Source: an uncultured Actinomycetes bacterium
GTDB lineage: Bacteria; Actinomycetota; Actinomycetes; Nanopelagicales; Nanopelagicaceae
Length of the DNA: 47,082 nt
Assembly (NCBI GenBank): GCA_903834145.1
Contig: CAILHY010000017.1
Coordinates: 1 to 47,082 of the forward strand
Direction of reading: 5' to 3'
The notes under the pieces were generated by a model. That model saw only the letters and a program-made list of their open reading frames with translations. It was not told where the DNA came from and ran no database searches. Both the position numbers and the translations under genes were made by a program. Below, piece by piece: positions 5,516 to 12,913 of this stretch (the first letter of the stretch is position 1; every line of letters starts with the position of its first letter).

Positions 5516-6859
5516 CTAAGACAAACTCAGAGTGAATGTTGCTGATGATGCCGTCGTCGTTTCGACGGTGAGGAGAATTCGGGTATTAGGGATCACCACT
5601 GAATCTCCCGCAACGAAATGCGGGTCGTTAGGAAGTGAATTTAATGTCGTCCTCGTACGTTTCAACAAAGCAATCCCAAGCGAGTTAGTCCAACCTGGCT
5701 TGAGTGGCCAAGCGGCATCATTTCCTACCATCCGAATTTCAATAGAAGGTAGTGCGGGAGAATCTGATCGGAATGAAGTCCTGAAGCAATCGTTTGAGAA
5801 AGCAGATCGAAATTCGAGGTAAGCAACTCCTAAATCGGTGTTAATGGTAAAAAGAGTATTGGTTACGCCTGGCCCAAAATCTTGCAATGTAAAAGTACCT
5901 AATTCATTAATAGGTGTTGAATGCACAGTTCCTAAACCAATTGCTCTTTGAGTTACCGAAATGTTGTCAGCATTCAACAACCCATCAGGTGACTGGCATA
6001 TGTATCTCTCTCCCTGCCCCATAAAATCTTCGATGTCTCCATACGGTTCCACGTCGCAAGACTTATTAATCGTGAGGACCAGTGTGGATTCATTGAAATT
6101 GCAGTTATATGAAATGGAATGAAGTAGTCCAAAAGTGTGTCCGATTTCGTGAGTGATAACAGAAGCAAAATCATAAGGTCGGAAACCTTCGTGGGCGTCG
6201 GAGGCAAAATTCTGCATATCTTCAAACGGGTTTATAAGAATGTTTTTCCCTGGGAGTTCTGCAATTCCCCTTTCACCTTGACCGCATTTTGAATCCATTG
6301 AAAAGACAATAAATCTGTATTCTCCGGAAGGATTTTTAAATTTTAAGGCCTTTTTCGCCTCAGTCACTGCTTGTGTGGGATCACAAGAAGTTGGGTGGCC
6401 TACCACGACAGGCTTTGTAACAATCGGCGCGCTAAATTTGAATCGATTATTCGTGACCTTGCTCCACCAGCCTGTAGCCAAATTAACCGAATCAACCGCG
6501 TTGGCAGTCGTAGTTTCATTCCAACTGTATTTTGAGCGACTCCCGATCGTGTAGAGAATCACTGGTTGAATGTGTAGAGATTTCGCCGAAATTATAGGTG
6601 AGTGATTCTGGTTATCTGCCAGCACCCAAACCAATTTCCCATTTACTCGCGTGCAAATATAGACAACGCTATCTTTAACAACTTTCACACTTACTTTGGT
6701 GCATACACTGCCTTGGATAGGGTGCCCCATCGCTGACACATTTGGGGCCGTAACTACAGCGATAAGTAATGACAATAGCGCCGTCAAAGCCAAGACCACG
6801 CCACTCCGCCGTTGCTTAATTTGCGGCATCCTCCGACTTGGTGTTGATGACGAAGCCAC
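5516..6859 (-). CDS. secreted zinc metalloprotease, M11 (gametolysin)-like
   Basis: Predicted 447 aa. Residues 19-43 form a signal peptide ending near VSA-MG. Residues about 50-80 form a small two-cysteine domain (GSVCTK...YICTRVNGKLVW) also found in the 9802-11847 protein. The metzincin signature HEIGHTFGLLH (H237, E238, H241, H247) has all three histidines and the catalytic glutamate. It is followed by the downstream pattern YGDIEDFMG, which resembles the Met-turn of the M11 family. It should act outside the cell as an endopeptidase; the substrate is unknown. The listed start is GTG; an ATG ten codons in lies too close to its GGAGG. It follows the 6877-7662 gene by 17 bp and probably shares its promoter. 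Confidence 0.8.
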   Translation of the reverse strand: MASSSTPSRRMPQIKQRRSGVVLALTALLSLLIAVVTAPNVSAMGHPIQGSVCTKVSVKVVKDSVVYICTRVNGKLVWVLADNQNHSPIISAKSLHIQPVILYTIGSRSKYSWNETTTANAVDSVNLATGWWSKVTNNRFKFSAPIVTKPVVVGHPTSCDPTQAVTEAKKALKFKNPSGEYRFIVFSMDSKCGQGERGIAELPGKNILINPFEDMQNFASDAHEGFRPYDFASVITHEIGHTFGLLHSISYNCNFNESTLVLTINKSCDVEPYGDIEDFMGQGERYICQSPDGLLNADNISVTQRAIGLGTVHSTPINELGTFTLQDFGPGVTNTLFTINTDLGVAYLEFRSAFSNDCFRTSFRSDSPALPSIEIRMVGNDAAWPLKPGWTNSLGIALLKRTRTTLNSLPNDPHFVAGDSVVIPNTRILLTVETTTASSATFTLSLS

Positions 6860-6876: not shown

Positions 6877-7662
6877 CTAGGCAAAGTAAATTTTAAATAT
6901 AGCGATTTCAGAGAGCTCTTTTGGAGGAAGGCGCAGAGAATCGATGTGTACGCTATTGCTGCCAGTATTAAATTTACTCTTTCCTGCAAGAATAGAAGTG
7001 GTACCGCCGATAGGCATCCCTTGTGAATCGAAATAAATTACAGTTCCTGTGGGCGTTCCTGCGCCGCCTCTCCAGGACATAATTCCATTTAATTTGAAGG
7101 AGCTGAACGGGGTGCAGTCTGAGAAGTCACAAAGAAGGCCAAGCGGCACGCCAAAGTCATGCCCATTCGGTTCTAGTTCAAGAATTACTGGCGCTTGAAT
7201 AATGGCTTTAGATGGGTTTACCCATGTGGCTGCAACGACTTTAGCTGTAATGCGAGCAACGCCCGTGATAGCTCCATTGCCGCCATCATCAATTGGCGCA
7301 GCCCAACCAATCTTGCCGGGTTTAATTTCTCCGGGAATCGTGGCTACGGTCTGGTAAATGGTGTTGCCCGAAGCATCTTCGAAAGTAAGTTGCGCCCTCA
7401 CATGCAAAGCCGATTTACGAGTATCAGAATTCGTGACACTAAAAGCCCAATTTGTGCGGAAGGAGAGTGAGCCATTAAAGGTCTTGTCACAAATGCCATT
7501 TATGTAACCAGAACAATAAGACACGTCTCTAAAACCAACAGGTGAGGCAACTAAGGATTTAACCGAGGGTTGCGAGGAAGAGGCAGCCTGCCCAGGAGTT
7601 GAAAGTAAGCCCCCGATAATTAACGATCCAACGGTAATTCCAGCCAAGACTTTGCTTCTCAT
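6877..7662 (-). CDS. secreted protein of unknown function, operon partner of the metalloprotease
   Basis: Predicted 261 aa with a clear signal peptide (MRSKVLAGITVGSLIIGG..., cleavage near GQAASS). The mature part is rich in beta-strand-type sequence and has two cysteine pairs (CSGYINGIC and CDFSDC), suggesting disulfides in an extracellular domain. I recognise no family. The ATG has a good ribosome site (TGGAGG). It is the first gene of a two-gene operon with the M11-like protease, so it may be its substrate, inhibitor or surface anchor (inference). Upstream at 7705-7732 lies the promoter motif shared with two other secreted-protein genes. Confidence 0.7.
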   Translation of the reverse strand: MRSKVLAGITVGSLIIGGLLSTPGQAASSSQPSVKSLVASPVGFRDVSYCSGYINGICDKTFNGSLSFRTNWAFSVTNSDTRKSALHVRAQLTFEDASGNTIYQTVATIPGEIKPGKIGWAAPIDDGGNGAITGVARITAKVVAATWVNPSKAIIQAPVILELEPNGHDFGVPLGLLCDFSDCTPFSSFKLNGIMSWRGGAGTPTGTVIYFDSQGMPIGGTTSILAGKSKFNTGSNSVHIDSLRLPPKELSEIAIFKIYFA

Positions 7663-7704: not shown

Positions 7705-7732
7705 TTACCGTGGATTTCCTCGGAATTTATGC
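7705..7732 (-). promoter_or_regulatory. candidate ECF-type promoter of the 6877/5516 operon
   Basis: On the minus strand GCATAAATTC, 12 bp, CGGTAA. The same two boxes with identical spacing precede 12000-12854, and a weaker version precedes 7820-8317. Counted from GCATAA to CGGTAA the spacer is 16 bp, normal for ECF sigma factors. The -10-like box ends 42 bp before the ATG. Confidence 0.55.
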
Positions 7733-7756
7733 ATCTTTGGGTTCTTTTTTTGTCGA

Positions 7757-7787
7757 GGTGGCCAAAGGATTGGATCCTTTGGCCACC
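7757..7787 (-). terminator. perfect 14-bp hairpin after the 7820-8317 gene
   Basis: GGTGGCCAAAGGAT, loop TGG, ATCCTTTGGCCACC: a perfect stem 33 bp past the stop of the minus-strand gene. There is no T-tract on the transcript side, so it would be a tail-less terminator of the kind proposed in actinobacteria, or a 3'-end stabiliser. Confidence 0.55.
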
Positions 7788-7819
7788 CAAGTGACGAATA
7801 GCAACCACTCTCTGATTAG

Positions 7820-8317
7820 CTAGCCGTTGAGGGCTTTCACTTCATCAGCGTAAGAACCTGCCCATGATTGATATGAGGAGCTCGCGGCAATAATTGCCTT
7901 GTTCGCTTTAGTCATTAATTTTGAATCATTTTTATTTATTGCAGTTTTAACCCTGCCAACGGCCGATTCATAAGCAGTTAATGACTTTTTCAGAAGTGCG
8001 TCAGACTTGGGAAATCCGACTGAAGGTGTGAGTGCCTTCATTTTTCCAATTGCGACAAGAAGTAAATCGCTTTTCGTTGAGGCATTCGCCTTGTAGGTAG
8101 AGAATTTTTTGCCAAATGAAAAGGTTGGTGGATTTGAAACGGCAGCAGCCCATTCAGTTGCTGCTTTCCCAAATTGGACGGAAAGTTTGGAAATAGCGGT
8201 CGAATAATCAACATCCGCCTGAGTCGCTGCTGCATGTGCCGGAATAAGGGCAACTGTTGAAAAGGAAAGGCCCATGGTGAGTGCCACGGCAACTAAATTA
8301 ATTCGAGAAATTTTCAT
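7820..8317 (-). CDS. small secreted helical protein, paralogue of 12000-12854
   Basis: Predicted 165 aa. The frame is open further upstream, but the start at 8317 fits: it gives a signal peptide (MKISRINLVAVALTMGLSFS..., cleavage near AHAAAT), has GAAGGG upstream, and keeps the gene clear of the promoter motif at 8375-8402 and of the divergent sigma gene. The mature protein is alanine/lysine-rich and helical. It shares SDALLKKSLTAY and SYQSWAGSYADEV with the 12000-12854 protein (SDVLLKKYLADY, EGNSWGTQYTIDM). Family unknown. Divergent from the ECF sigma gene, so plausibly regulated by it. Confidence 0.7.
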   Translation of the reverse strand: MKISRINLVAVALTMGLSFSTVALIPAHAAATQADVDYSTAISKLSVQFGKAATEWAAAVSNPPTFSFGKKFSTYKANASTKSDLLLVAIGKMKALTPSVGFPKSDALLKKSLTAYESAVGRVKTAINKNDSKLMTKANKAIIAASSSYQSWAGSYADEVKALNG

Positions 8318-8374
8318 ATACAAGACCCTTCGTTCGGCTGTTGTTCGTGGCTGGAAATCCCGTTCTCTAACTCC

Positions 8375-8402
8375 ACACCGCCGAGATTGAATATTTTTAT
8401 GC
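8375..8402 (-). promoter_or_regulatory. candidate ECF-type promoter of the 7820-8317 gene
   Basis: On the minus strand GCATAAAAAT, 12 bp, CGGTGT. It keeps the spacing of the other two copies, with a weaker downstream box. It lies between the divergent sigma gene and the secreted-protein gene. Confidence 0.4.
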
Positions 8403-8489
8403 ATCGTTGTGGACTTTTTTGCCCGTACTCGGTGGAAAATAGAACCTGCCCACTGTGCCCCGTATGGACGCCTCCTGTAGCCTTCGCTA

Positions 8490-9104
8490 ATGGCGGGCAC
8501 AAGTCGGAACTCACGCTCATACATCGAGGGCGAATTCACTGCCTGGCTCTCAACTCATCAAAGAACTCTTATAAAGAGTGCGCGGGCGATCTGCTTTGAT
8601 CGGCAAAATTCAGATGATGTCTTGCAAGAAGCGCTAGCTGATATTTACAAGCGTTGGGCAAAAATTCGCGACCATGAAAATTTAGAGGCTTACGCGGTCA
8701 GAGTAATGGTGAGTAAACACGCTGATTTAAGACGCAAATGGGCTAGGCGCCAAACCGAGTCAGAGACCACCTTAGAGATGGCTGATTTTTTATTGGACTC
8801 TGTCGATAACTCTGATGAAGTAGCGGAGAGACTCCTCGTACGGGCTGCCTTGAAATCTCTAACAGCTTCTCAAAGAGCAGTTCTGCTACTTGCTTATGAG
8901 TATGGATATCTATTACGAGAAATTGCTGAAATTTTGGATATGCAACAGGGCACAGTTGCATCACATTTAGCTCGCGGTAAAGCAGCAGTTGCTCAGTATG
9001 TTGAATCAGTGCCAGCGCTGGAAAGCAGAAGAAGAGGACAAATTCAAAACTCCTCAGATAGAGATGCACAAATAATCGAAGATGCGCAGGTGATAGAAGA
9101 ATGA
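8490..9104 (+). CDS. ECF RNA polymerase sigma factor, SigE-like actinobacterial family
   Basis: Predicted 204 aa. Region 2 spans about residues 12-75 (DDVLQEALADIYKRW, then LEAYAVRVMVSKHADLRRKWARR). Region 4 spans about 112-165, with the helix-turn-helix YLLREIAEILDMQQGTVASHLARGKAAV. Length and wording fit the SigE family of actinobacterial ECF factors. The C-terminus carries a polar tail of about 35 residues. The stop overlaps the ATG of the membrane protein at 9101, so the two are made together and are probably a sigma/regulator pair. No clear ribosome site precedes the ATG. Probable targets are the promoters at 7705, 8375 and 12886 (inference). Confidence 0.88.
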   Translation: MAGTSRNSRSYIEGEFTAWLSTHQRTLIKSARAICFDRQNSDDVLQEALADIYKRWAKIRDHENLEAYAVRVMVSKHADLRRKWARRQTESETTLEMADFLLDSVDNSDEVAERLLVRAALKSLTASQRAVLLLAYEYGYLLREIAEILDMQQGTVASHLARGKAAVAQYVESVPALESRRRGQIQNSSDRDAQIIEDAQVIEE

Positions 9105-9703
9105 TGCAAAACATAGATCCACTAATTCAACGAGAGTTTGATCGCCTCGGCATCAATATTTTGGAATCAGAGCACTTGGCTGACCTTGTCATTGCCAAAG
9201 TTCGTAATCGACGTACTCGTAAATTCACTCTTATTGCACTTTATGGCGCCCTCGCTATTGGCATTGGGCTCATTCTTTATCTAGCGGGGTCAGCCCTTAA
9301 TGGTTCGAGTGGAGACCAAATACAACAAATGCAATCCTCATCCCTCACCTCGCCAGCAGGAGCCAACGGGTCACTATCACTGCCTCAATTTGCGGTAATA
9401 AATGTAGATACAACTAAGGCTGAAGGTCGAAATCTTGGATTCAGCTTCGACCTGAAAGCAAGAAATATGTTTGAGATGATTTCTGAAATTCCACAGACAA
9501 TCCGGGGTTTAGCAGGTTCGATAGAGGTCTATCGTGTAAATCCTGATAAAAGTAAAACTTTTTTCACAAACTTTGAATTAGGGACAAGCACGCACATTAA
9601 TGACTTTTCAGTGCCTGCTGACGGGCAGTATCAGATTGTTTTTCGATTCTCTGATCCAAACTTCAAGGGAAGAATCCGGTTGGCATTCCTCGAAGTCCAT
9701 TAA
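9101..9703 (+). CDS. single-pass membrane protein coupled to the sigma factor (putative anti-sigma)
   Basis: Predicted 200 aa: about 38 cytoplasmic residues ending in a positive cluster (RNRRTRK), one membrane helix (FTLIALYGALAIGIGLILYLAG), then an outside domain of about 135 residues of beta type. Topology and overlap with the sigma gene suggest an anti-sigma role. The zinc anti-sigma motif HxxxCxxC is absent, so this would be an unusual or unrelated regulator. The last 24 codons are duplicated as a fragment at 5384-5455, showing that a second copy existed next to the tRNA. Confidence 0.65.
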   Translation: MMQNIDPLIQREFDRLGINILESEHLADLVIAKVRNRRTRKFTLIALYGALAIGIGLILYLAGSALNGSSGDQIQQMQSSSLTSPAGANGSLSLPQFAVINVDTTKAEGRNLGFSFDLKARNMFEMISEIPQTIRGLAGSIEVYRVNPDKSKTFFTNFELGTSTHINDFSVPADGQYQIVFRFSDPNFKGRIRLAFLEVH

Positions 9704-9801
9704 AGAACCTGCATAAGTGCATCCTCATACGGTGGTGATAGTTGGAAGAATCGCAGGGTGCTTCACGCATAAATATCAGCAATTATGACGGTATTGAGAA
9801 T

Positions 9802-11847
9802 ATGAGAAAAAAACTGCTACTAGCCAGTCTCCTTGGGCTTTGTCTAGCACAACTTTTAGCCATAAATGCCGCAGCTGCTGTTAAGGCTGGAACCACCTGC
9901 ACCAAACTTAACCAAAAAACTAATTCGGCCGGCTTCGCCTACACCTGTATCAAATCTGGAAAGAAGATGGTGTGGAGCAAGGGTGTGAAGGTGGTGCCTC
10001 CGACCCCAACCCCAACCCCAGAGCAAACTTCCTCACCGTCTACATCCACATCGGGGCAGCCGGTGCTTGATTCAGATGGAATTGCAAAAATTGCGGATAA
10101 TGATGTTCAACAGATCCTGAAAACTTCGCCGTCTCCAAAATCTTCCTACGTCGTTCACCAATCACCGAATGTAAGCCAAGCGCTCGTGGATATCGCCAAT
10201 AAGGTACTTCCAACTGCTGTGAAATTCTGGCAACCTGTATATGCCCCAACAAAGCCAGCGGATGTGATCATGGGTTATTGGTCCGATGGCGATTGGTTGC
10301 AAACGACAGATCAACAAGCAGGAGACACTCCCGGTGGATACAGCAGTCTTGGAAGTTGGATTAGTGGTCACCCGACATCTGATTGGCCAAGTGTTTCGGG
10401 TTCGGGTTCGCATGCAGGGATAACAGTTAGCGGCGTGACTCCAAAGATCATCATCATTGTCAGTGGACCTAATGTCATTTATCGGCCCGGGGCGTACACA
10501 ACGCCAACGCACGAATACACCATGAATGTGATGCAAGAGCTTGATCTCAATGTATTTGGGCAATCGCCATGCTGGTTCAATGAGGGAATGGCGCAGTTTT
10601 ATGGTGCCGCCCTCACATATTCGGATCCAACGACTTACTTGGCGAATCGACGCACCATGCTCCTTGATACTGAGTTTGGTAAATATCCGTTCTCCACTCA
10701 AAAGACCGACCCGCAATGGGTTGCGGATATGCAGAATAGTGAGACTGGAGACTGCGCCAATAACAGCAGTGCATGGTTCGGGCAACTTGCGATGGAGAAA
10801 ATGGTAGCTGTCCATGGCACTGCTGGAGTCATTGCATTTCTTAAGGATCTCAATCTCAGTAAGAATTTTGCGACTTCCTTCCAGAATATCTACAACATGA
10901 CACTGGTCGAGTTTTACGGCGCCCTCGCGCCACATATCTCAAGCACGGTGAATGATCTTCTTGGGCTTGGAAGTGGACAAGGCACGAACACACCAGCGCC
11001 GATAGCAGTCAGTCAAGGAAACGCTGCTGCAATGCAGGCCACTATTCTCAAACAGGTGGGTGATGCGATCACTGCTTCTCAAAGTGTTCCGACCTCCCCT
11101 CTGATCTCTTTGAATGTTCAAGATGGAGCGTTAACTTCAAGTCAGCGTCAATGGATCAACAGTGCCTTGCAATTCATTAGTTATCTATCGCCACCTACAA
11201 AGAATGCAAAGTGGAACCTGGTATTTCCATCAACGATGGATTGGTTCTTAAAAAATTGGGATATGAATCTCGAATCCCAGCACTATAAAGATATGTTCGC
11301 TAACAACACTGCCCAACAATTAATGGGAAGCGTTCATTCGCACGGCACATCTGATGGGGGATGGGATGCTTCCTTCTTTGTATCTCCCACGAATAATTGG
11401 TTCAACACTGACTGGCAACTTCGATTCATTACTCAGCTCTTAAAGCCAATTGGTTATGCCGATGGTAGCCTTGGCGTGAAGGTTCCTGATTGGTTTGCCC
11501 GTTCCTTTGCATATCCAATTTCAGCGGCGTACACCCAGATTACTTCGCAAGCTTCATATGCTCAAACCCATCAAATGTGGCTCAATAATCTTAAAGAGTT
11601 ACCAAAGCCATTCGATATGACAATTTACGAAGACCCGAACACTTACACAGCTGGATATGAGAGCTACAAGGCGCCGGGATCGCTTGCAGATGAAATCCTT
11701 CTGAGCCAAGCCGGGCTGTCGAAAGCATTGGGTTTCATTGGTGACATTGCCAAGGCAGGAACTGATTGGGCTACCCAGTTACCGAAGACCTTTGGAATCA
11801 CTAAGAGCGACTTGTACGCCTTGATTACAACATTGGTCGGTGGTTAA
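9802..11847 (+). CDS. large secreted protein with degenerate gluzincin-type peptidase domain
   Basis: Start chosen at the ATG at 9802 (681 aa), which begins a proper signal peptide (MRKKLLLASLLGLCLAQLL..., cleavage near NAAAAV); a TTG 60 bp upstream only adds polar residues. After cleavage comes the two-cysteine domain GTTCTK...YTCIKSGKKMVW shared with the M11-like protease, then a Pro/Thr/Ser linker (about 62-85). The central domain has THEYTMNVM (H237, E238, M241) followed by CWFNEGMAQFYG (E261). This resembles the HExxH...E layout of MA-clan peptidases, but the second histidine is methionine. The protein may bind rather than cut. The C-terminal half (about 400-680) is unrecognised. It follows the sigma/membrane-protein pair on the same strand. 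Confidence 0.75.
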   Translation: MRKKLLLASLLGLCLAQLLAINAAAAVKAGTTCTKLNQKTNSAGFAYTCIKSGKKMVWSKGVKVVPPTPTPTPEQTSSPSTSTSGQPVLDSDGIAKIADNDVQQILKTSPSPKSSYVVHQSPNVSQALVDIANKVLPTAVKFWQPVYAPTKPADVIMGYWSDGDWLQTTDQQAGDTPGGYSSLGSWISGHPTSDWPSVSGSGSHAGITVSGVTPKIIIIVSGPNVIYRPGAYTTPTHEYTMNVMQELDLNVFGQSPCWFNEGMAQFYGAALTYSDPTTYLANRRTMLLDTEFGKYPFSTQKTDPQWVADMQNSETGDCANNSSAWFGQLAMEKMVAVHGTAGVIAFLKDLNLSKNFATSFQNIYNMTLVEFYGALAPHISSTVNDLLGLGSGQGTNTPAPIAVSQGNAAAMQATILKQVGDAITASQSVPTSPLISLNVQDGALTSSQRQWINSALQFISYLSPPTKNAKWNLVFPSTMDWFLKNWDMNLESQHYKDMFANNTAQQLMGSVHSHGTSDGGWDASFFVSPTNNWFNTDWQLRFITQLLKPIGYADGSLGVKVPDWFARSFAYPISAAYTQITSQASYAQTHQMWLNNLKELPKPFDMTIYEDPNTYTAGYESYKAPGSLADEILLSQAGLSKALGFIGDIAKAGTDWATQLPKTFGITKSDLYALITTLVGG

Positions 11848-11887
11848 TTCCTCAAGTGATTTCGGGCAATAAATTCATGATTATCTA

Positions 11888-11938
11888 AAAATCGGGGAAT
11901 TACCCAGGTTGAGGAGGATAAGTCCCTCATCCTCCGCC
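11888..11938 (+). repeat. 51-bp direct repeat, copy B (att-like, contains tRNA-Ser 3' end)
   Basis: Second copy of the repeat at 5333-5383 (three mismatches), ending in ATCCTCCGCC followed by A, so it restores the tRNA end ATCCTCCGCCA. Together the copies bracket 5384-11887, which contains the protease, sigma factor and secreted-protein genes. Confidence 0.75.
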
Positions 11939-11948
11939 AGTAATTGAA

Positions 11949-11987
11949 ACCAAAAGCACACAACCGAGTTGATCGTGGGCCTTTGGT
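11949..11987 (-). terminator. imperfect hairpin after the 12000-12854 gene
   Basis: On the minus strand ACCAAAGGCCCAC and GTGTGCTTTTGGT pair with two mismatches around a 13-nt loop, starting 12 bp after the stop. The tail is only weakly T-rich. Confidence 0.4.
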
Positions 11988-11999
11988 GTTTATCAGGTT

Positions 12000-12854
12000 T
12001 TAAGGAATCTTGGTGAAGCTAAGGGAGGACCAAACTCCCTGCCCAGTTGGGTTCACAGCAGCAATTCTAAAGCCATAGGTACCGCCACTAACAATTCCGT
12101 TTAGGGCAAGCGAAAAAGGGAATGTGCTTATATCTTTTACTAAAATTGTTCCAGGAATTGGCGTACTCGTTAATGAACCTTCGTACCATTCATAAACATA
12201 GCCGGTGACCTGAAGCGCCTGTTGGTTAAAAGTTGAGTTATCAACAACGTTTGCAAATAGGGAAAACAGATTTGTATTTGTATCAGTCCCGGTTGTAAAG
12301 GTAAATGACGGTGCAGTGGCCGGAGCCGCAAGGTTTGAAATACTCATATCTATTGTGTACTGCGTGCCCCAGGAGTTACCCTCGTTTGTTACAGCGTTCG
12401 CCAATTTCACTTGGCTGGCAAGTCGTTGTGCTTCTGCTGTTTTTGTTGTTACTGCTGCGTTGTTAAAACTTTTCTTCATCACTGACATATAAGCGGCGTA
12501 ATCCGCAAGATACTTTTTCAACAACACGTCGGAACTTTGGTAGCTCGGGCTTGCAACCAACCCATTTACCGCGGCAATCGAACTAGTTACTTTAGTAATT
12601 GAGGCATTAATTAACTTCAGCCAGGCCTTGTACTTCGCACTCGTACGAACCAATTCTTGAGCCGGTGATTTAGTAAGTTTTTCATAAGCCGCAACGGCCG
12701 GCATGAATATTCCGCTATATAAGGTGTCCATGGCCCCGCTGTAAGTAGTATCTGCCGGCTGATTGTCTGCATAACTTATTGTTGGAATCGCAACCCCCAG
12801 CGTGAGGGCAAGCACTGCAACGGTCGTAATCCTCTTTAAACCTTGAATTTTCAT
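12000..12854 (-). CDS. secreted protein with helical N-terminal domain and Fn3/PKD-like C-terminal domain
   Basis: Predicted 284 aa. The signal peptide is MKIQGLKRITTVAVLALTLGV... (cleavage near SYADNQ). Residues about 30-180 form a helical domain related to the 7820-8317 protein. Residues about 190-284 (LFANVVDNSTFNQQALQVTGYVYEWYEG..., ending SGGTYGFRIAAVNPTGQGVWSSLSFTKIP) look like an immunoglobulin/fibronectin-III type extracellular domain. Function unknown; probably a surface or matrix protein. The upstream motif at 12886-12913 is nearly identical to that of the protease operon. It lies just outside repeat copy B, so the regulon appears to extend past the island border. Confidence 0.7.
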   Translation of the reverse strand: MKIQGLKRITTVAVLALTLGVAIPTISYADNQPADTTYSGAMDTLYSGIFMPAVAAYEKLTKSPAQELVRTSAKYKAWLKLINASITKVTSSIAAVNGLVASPSYQSSDVLLKKYLADYAAYMSVMKKSFNNAAVTTKTAEAQRLASQVKLANAVTNEGNSWGTQYTIDMSISNLAAPATAPSFTFTTGTDTNTNLFSLFANVVDNSTFNQQALQVTGYVYEWYEGSLTSTPIPGTILVKDISTFPFSLALNGIVSGGTYGFRIAAVNPTGQGVWSSLSFTKIP

Positions 12855-12885
12855 AAGAATCCCCTAAGCCTCGGTATTACTGCCT

Positions 12886-12913
12886 TTACCGCGATTTGCT
12901 TGCGAATTTATGC
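12886..12913 (-). promoter_or_regulatory. candidate ECF-type promoter of the 12000-12854 gene
   Basis: On the minus strand GCATAAATTC, 12 bp, CGGTAA: both boxes identical to the site at 7705-7732. It ends 31 bp before the ATG. Confidence 0.55.

Follow-up and report, generated by a model that had tools for sequence, protein, structure and literature searches.

Genes around the sigma factor

The window, meaning the whole 47,082-nucleotide stretch analysed here, belongs to the genome of a freshwater acI bacterium (Nanopelagicaceae), of which 1.75 Mb were scanned. It carries the gene for an ECF sigma factor, the gene for a membrane protein that overlaps its end, and five genes whose products are predicted to be exported, with signal peptides called throughout by a hydropathy heuristic (Table 1). 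As expected of an ECF sigma factor, the product has sigma-70 regions 2 and 4 only, both with Pfam scores above the cut-offs. The closest curated family is the actinobacterial TIGR02983 (SigE-fam_strep; 106.9 bits, 9e-31), although the score misses the membership cut-off of 141.55 bits.

Table 1. Genes and putative promoter sites around the sigma factor gene (positions in the window)
Feature	Position	Strand	Remarks
Exported metzincin-type metalloprotease (HEIGHTFGLLH)	5516..6859	-	Reprolysin_4 2.6e-6; motif read from sequence
Exported protein, 261 aa, no known family	6877..7662	-	signal peptide by heuristic; no Pfam match
GCATAAA-N15-CGGT site	7707..7732	-	predicted to serve the 6877 gene, probably 5516 also; predicted +1 7697
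Exported protein, 165 aa, weak DUF7018 match	7820..8317	-	paralogue of the 12000 protein
GCATAAA-N15-CGGT site	8377..8402	-	predicted to serve the 7820 gene (start ATG 8317); predicted +1 8367
ECF sigma factor, 204 aa, regions 2 and 4 only	8490..9104	+	Pfam Sigma70_r2 1.8e-7, Sigma70_r4_2 2.8e-11
Probable anti-sigma: ~40-residue cytosolic segment, one TM helix, outer beta-sandwich	9101..9703	+	overlaps the sigma stop codon
GCATAAA-N15-CGGT site	9767..9792	+	predicted to serve the 9802 gene; predicted +1 = A of ATG 9802, leaderless
Exported protein, 681 aa, relative of Peptidase MA-like proteins	9802..11847	+	
Exported protein, 284 aa	12000..12854	-	conserved beside sigma in genome G044, retained in G018
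GCATAAA-N15-CGGT site	12888..12913	-	predicted to serve the 12000 gene; predicted +1 12878

The metalloprotease gene lies 17 bp beyond the 6877 gene and the two probably form one operon. The 9802 protein is 51% identical to the product of L099:9100-11322, which has a weak match to Peptidase_MA_2 (0.002, below the cut-off); near residues 237-241 the window protein reads HEYTM and its relative HEYTH, and the replacement of the second histidine by methionine means that metalloprotease activity of the 9802 copy may be lost. In several unrelated exported proteins the signal peptide is followed by an N-terminal module of about 50 residues, whose pattern is C-x-K...Y-x-C...W; among them are those encoded at 5516-6859 and 9802-11847 and others at loci L140 and L073.

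A bipartite motif 5' of the exported-protein genes

The sequence GCATAAA-N15-CGGT is present exactly four times in the whole 1.75 Mb genome, and all four sites fall within 5.2 kb around the sigma gene, each of them 5' of an exported-protein gene. Three are on the minus strand, with precisely the coordinates and boxes that the preliminary description gave them, reading GCATAAATTC-N12-CGGTAA at 7732-7705 and again at 12913-12886, and GCATAAAAAT-N12-CGGTGT at 8402-8375. Its distances to the start codons at 7662, 12854 and 8317 agree with ours within one base, the three spacers are unlike one another, and the sigma gene lies among the sites, both as it had claimed. It had also placed all sites on the minus strand, which is incorrect, as a fourth exact site, again with N15, is on the plus strand (9767-9792, GCATAAATATCAGCAATTATGACGGT), and the ATG of the 9802 gene begins at the 10th base beyond it. 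This site had been overlooked in favour of a looser match at 9709-9734, described as preceding the 9802 gene; the looser match has the wrong spacing, and because that spacing is not used above background near sigma orthologues we treat it as probably due to chance.

Relaxing the pattern to GCATAA-N12..18-CGGT gives six matches in the window against 0.68 expected, a number reached in none of 100 shuffles. With a six-base box (GCATAA-N16-CGGT) the genome gains two further matches, both within coding sequence. Allowing one mismatch yields 36 matches in the genome and 36 in the reversed control, which is background only; of the genomic sites 21 were examined, and not one stands before a signal-peptide gene. 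A literature search for the GCATAAA-N15-CGGT motif found no paper.

Distribution of the sigma factor and the motif

When the sigma factor was searched for in 151 genomes of the order, the matches separated clearly into two classes. Orthologues (E 2e-47 or better) are present in 29, those of the 28 other genomes being 55-61% identical to the window sigma. The remaining 122 have no match or distant paralogues only, with E no better than 5e-12; almost every genome of the order has other ECF-like paralogues, of about 21-33% identity. Cultured strains with the cassette include Ca. Planktophila lacus MMS-21-148, IMCC26103 and IMCC19121. A wider scan, of 84,980 species genomes, gave 49 orthologue loci, mostly labelled actinobacterium, Ca. 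Planktophila or Ca. Nanopelagicaceae together with a few metagenome bins labelled otherwise, and the next matches beyond these are sigmas no more than 34% identical, from Nocardioides and others. Among 396 genomes of the phylum there is one further weak match, with no motif nearby, and the motif is near none of 31 distant sigma homologues.

Each of the 29 genomes with the sigma factor has at least one exact motif, and the density in these is 2.35 per Mb (95 sites in 40.4 Mb), with 26 sites or 0.64 per Mb for the reversed control. The 122 genomes lacking it have 82 sites in 169.6 Mb, or 0.48 per Mb (reversed control 103, 0.61 per Mb). The two groups differ strongly in motif density (Mann-Whitney p=7e-15), a value that is nominal, given the non-independence of related genomes. 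At distances of up to 9 kb from the sigma gene the N15 spacing is used 38 times, and every other spacing from 8 to 24 at most twice. The preliminary description had suggested checking in relatives whether the motif accompanies the sigma factor and clusters before genes for exported proteins, and had taken absence upstream of orthologues as a sign against a regulon; in the 151 genomes the motif does follow the sigma factor and does cluster before such genes, and it is present at 46 of 53 distinct sigma loci, or 46 of the 47 that are assessable.

Five of the seven loci with no motif are on contigs that end about 1 kb or less past the start of the sigma match, and in a sixth (L110) the contig enters a collapsed repeat. 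At L152, a divergent sigma locus, the exact motif is absent and there is a one-mismatch variant only. The repeat at the end of the L110 contig, after the anti-sigma gene (9200-9324), is a tandem array of about 35 bp units with CTCAACTCCGATAGGAGTCTGAGCCTA and is probably an assembly artefact. At L152, which has the most divergent sigma of all, positions 2385-2446 contain GCACAAAT variants in both orientations, possibly reflecting a co-evolved change of promoter.

Genes that follow the motif

Near sigma genes, 51 of 64 motifs stand before a signal-peptide gene and five before the sigma gene itself, with three having no gene after them and five in other positions. Distal motifs in genomes with the sigma factor stand before signal-peptide genes in 28 of 52 cases and within reading frames in 14, as against 2 of 38 and 28 of 38, respectively, in genomes without it (Fisher p=8e-7 for the signal-peptide placement). 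Exact matches in antisense orientation within five anti-sigma genes (L092, L097, L098, L103 and L148) coincide with codons of the transmembrane stretch and were set aside as likely coding coincidences.

A LuxR-type (GerE) regulator gene, encoding about 240 aa, follows the motif in six genomes (L080, L192, L196, L198, L223 and L261) and may thus add a second-tier regulator to the regulon. Outside the window genome, the predicted regulon includes both distal loci and this LuxR-type regulator. Three genomes (G018, G042 and G057) have no detected sigma factor, yet keep a target with the motif. The G042 contig starts inside the anti-sigma gene, and its target is orthologous to one in the window; in G018 the cassette is absent at that place and an orthologue of the 12000 gene is retained. 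G018 and G057 represent losses, gaps or unexplained cases.

Predicted position of the transcription start

The distance between motif and start codon was analysed in 78 distinct sites before signal-peptide genes. In 11 of these an ATG begins at exactly the 10th base past CGGT (p=4e-8 for one fixed position), and no other start-codon distance below 18 was seen among the 78. When the leadered sites were thinned to 48, the 10th base was a purine in 96% (p=2e-12) and was immediately preceded by a pyrimidine in 69%. The ATG at this base in 11 sites and the purine elsewhere together point to the 10th base past CGGT as +1, and with +1 so placed GCATAAA would span -35 to -29 and CGGT -13 to -10, which is the usual geometry of a sigma promoter. 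A bipartite -35/-10 promoter of its own with fixed spacing, as expected of an ECF sigma factor, is found here by comparison of genomes. The predicted start also implies that the 9802 mRNA would be leaderless; such mRNAs are common in mycobacteria, which are likewise actinobacteria (PMC4633059, PMC3898074).

Autoregulation and a probable anti-sigma factor

Positive autoregulation is common, though not universal, among ECF sigma factors. In this family an exact motif is found upstream of the sigma gene at five loci only. None is present upstream of the window sigma gene, indicating that the usual autoregulation is absent there. A search for a degenerate autoregulatory site before most sigma genes gave background levels once the five exact sites and one further site of one mismatch were set aside.

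At almost all loci whose contigs extend far enough, a single-pass membrane protein gene overlaps or abuts the sigma stop codon; in L073 (genome G104) this gene looks interrupted. A profile of this protein matches in 27 of the 29 genomes with the sigma factor and in none of the 122 others; in the two that it misses (G064 and G107) the contigs end in or right after the sigma gene. The outer domain is of two unlike types, and the cytosolic end is conserved across both with the pattern D-x-x-I-x-x-E ... L ... R. An AF2 model of the 9101-9703 protein has helices at 6-15 and 23-67, the latter including the membrane span, and strands at 95-198 that form a beta-sandwich, for which a structure search returned generic beta-sandwich matches only. 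The reading of the cytosolic segment as two helices has block pLDDT values of 70-73 in residues 1-30, and searches of this segment against Pfam and the PDB gave no match to CnrY, any solved anti-sigma factor or any known anti-sigma family. The membrane protein is a probable class-II-like anti-sigma factor.

Evolution of the cassette

In a tree the sigma sequences divide into a large set A and a smaller set B (support 88/96, long branches), and the same motif is used in both. Set A comprises 37 loci with a WQWNW-type outer domain, for which autoregulation was not seen; the window locus belongs to set B, in which targets are varied and several loci are autoregulated. The main target of set A is an exported protein of about 630 aa with no Pfam family. 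A PDB search with its structure model (pTM 0.53) gave no match at E<=0.001, and many exported proteins of a single genome share its C-terminal domain. The target family is present in 25 of the 29 genomes with the sigma factor and 11 of the 122 without it.

The A4 family, a large exported family with many copies per genome (for example L089:6029-7912 and G000:C27:63108-65039), shares a C-terminal domain that ends in TCVKGK..KK.TAVKP.CP.GYKKK; the family matches neither a Pfam entry nor a solved fold. The window genome has its own full-length A4 copy, upstream of which the exact motif is absent (two mismatches).

Window positions 9535-11918 are 99.2% identical in DNA to L075:1-2376 of G042, a genome of another genus. 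In the gene that follows, identity is down to 71%, a pattern that points to recent transfer or recombination, or else to an artefact of assembly. We lean towards, and do not press further, the view that this is a lineage-specific sigma/anti-sigma module of freshwater actinobacteria. In it the GCATAAA / CGGT promoter alphabet and a minimal anti-sigma segment of about 40 residues would stay fixed, with exchange of the outer sensor domain and the exported targets and movement of the cassette from one genus to another.

Discussion

The explanation that best accounts for the whole, and in which we place high confidence, is that the adjacent ECF sigma factor uses the motif as its promoter, with four exported-protein promoters in the window and a probable membrane-protein inhibitor. 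Comparison between genomes provides the motif, its spacing, its linkage to and co-occurrence with the sigma gene, its placement before exported-protein genes and the predicted position of +1. The preliminary description had envisaged a local regulon of exported proteins under the ECF sigma factor, and the co-occurrence, fixed spacing, linkage and predicted start all argue for one. We infer that recognition is direct, such that region 4 of the sigma factor would read GCATAAA at -35 to -29 and region 2 would read CGGT at -13 to -10, with transcription beginning 10 bases beyond the T of CGGT.

We give little credence to the proposition that the motif is instead an operator for a transcription factor, for example of LuxR type, located on ordinary sigma-A promoters and merely travelling with the sigma cassette. 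Such a reading could draw on the LuxR-type gene that follows the motif in six genomes, but the motif is directional, non-palindromic and of a single spacing, and the window genome has it without a LuxR target gene, the motif following the sigma factor. Moreover, because the motif is positioned exactly at -35/-10 of a start that two independent signs predict, it appears to replace the sigma-A boxes, occupying the place where these would lie. Slightly less credible still is that the motif is read by another of the sigma factors in these bacteria, the linked ECF sigma being a bystander; candidates exist in the ECF-like paralogues (about 21-33%) of nearly all genomes of the order, but genomes that bear paralogues without the linked sigma show a background level of the motif, mostly inside coding sequence. 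That the similarity is a duplicated upstream remnant or chance, without regulatory meaning, is scarcely tenable, for although the 7820 and 12000 products are paralogous and their two promoters could share ancestry, the spacers and flanks are unrelated, the targets come from several unrelated families, conservation is limited to the two boxes and the start region, and the co-occurrence, spacing and linkage statistics already refute it unless they are wrong.

With the linked ECF sigma factor as the reader of the motif, the window sigma would drive four promoters, serving the 6877 gene with the 5516 metalloprotease, the 7820 gene, the 12000 gene and, leaderless, the 9802 gene. The membrane protein encoded after it would most likely keep the sigma factor inactive by means of the short two-helix cytosolic segment, and presumably frees it when the outer domain meets a cell-surface signal.

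The arrangement resembles E. coli RpoE/RseA, an ECF (group IV) sigma factor with a membrane anti-sigma factor, in having regions 2 and 4 only, an overlapping gene whose product spans the membrane once, a local set of exported proteins as predicted targets, and a -35 box that starts at -35 with a -10 box that ends at -10. Unlike ECF sigma factors of that type, the sigma factor described here is mostly not autoregulated and is confined to one freshwater actinobacterial family, its -35 box GCATAAA lacks AAC, and its -10 box is CGGT and not CGT. AAC in the -35 and CGT in the -10 element are the classical hallmarks of ECF promoters and are no longer a required feature of the group (PMC8103513); neither classical box was found, and GCATAA(A) and CGGT are present in 78 of 78 sites. 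It is also set apart from the SigE-like family, with the nearest homologues outside the orthologue family being no more than 34% identical. CnrY, the class II anti-sigma factor of CnrH in Cupriavidus metallidurans, has a cytosolic part of fewer than 50 residues, of which helix 1 binds region 4 of the sigma factor and helix 2 binds region 2 (PMC7406223). The candidate would resemble it in a very short cytosolic part, with two modelled helices before the TM helix, although there is no sequence match, the outer domain is a beta-sandwich of about 100 residues, and sigma binding is putative. Both the promoter and the putative anti-sigma factor are atypical for ECF systems, and the anti-sigma segment would rank among the short, class-II-like ones.

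Promoter prediction is limited for ECF sigma factors that are not autoregulated (PMC8103513), and the sigma factor here, mostly not autoregulated, is such a case; sigma, promoter and targets can be read from sequence alone, and the start is predicted to the base. The pairing suggests a usable orthogonal sigma/promoter pair, and offers function by association for a large family of exported proteins without a known domain.
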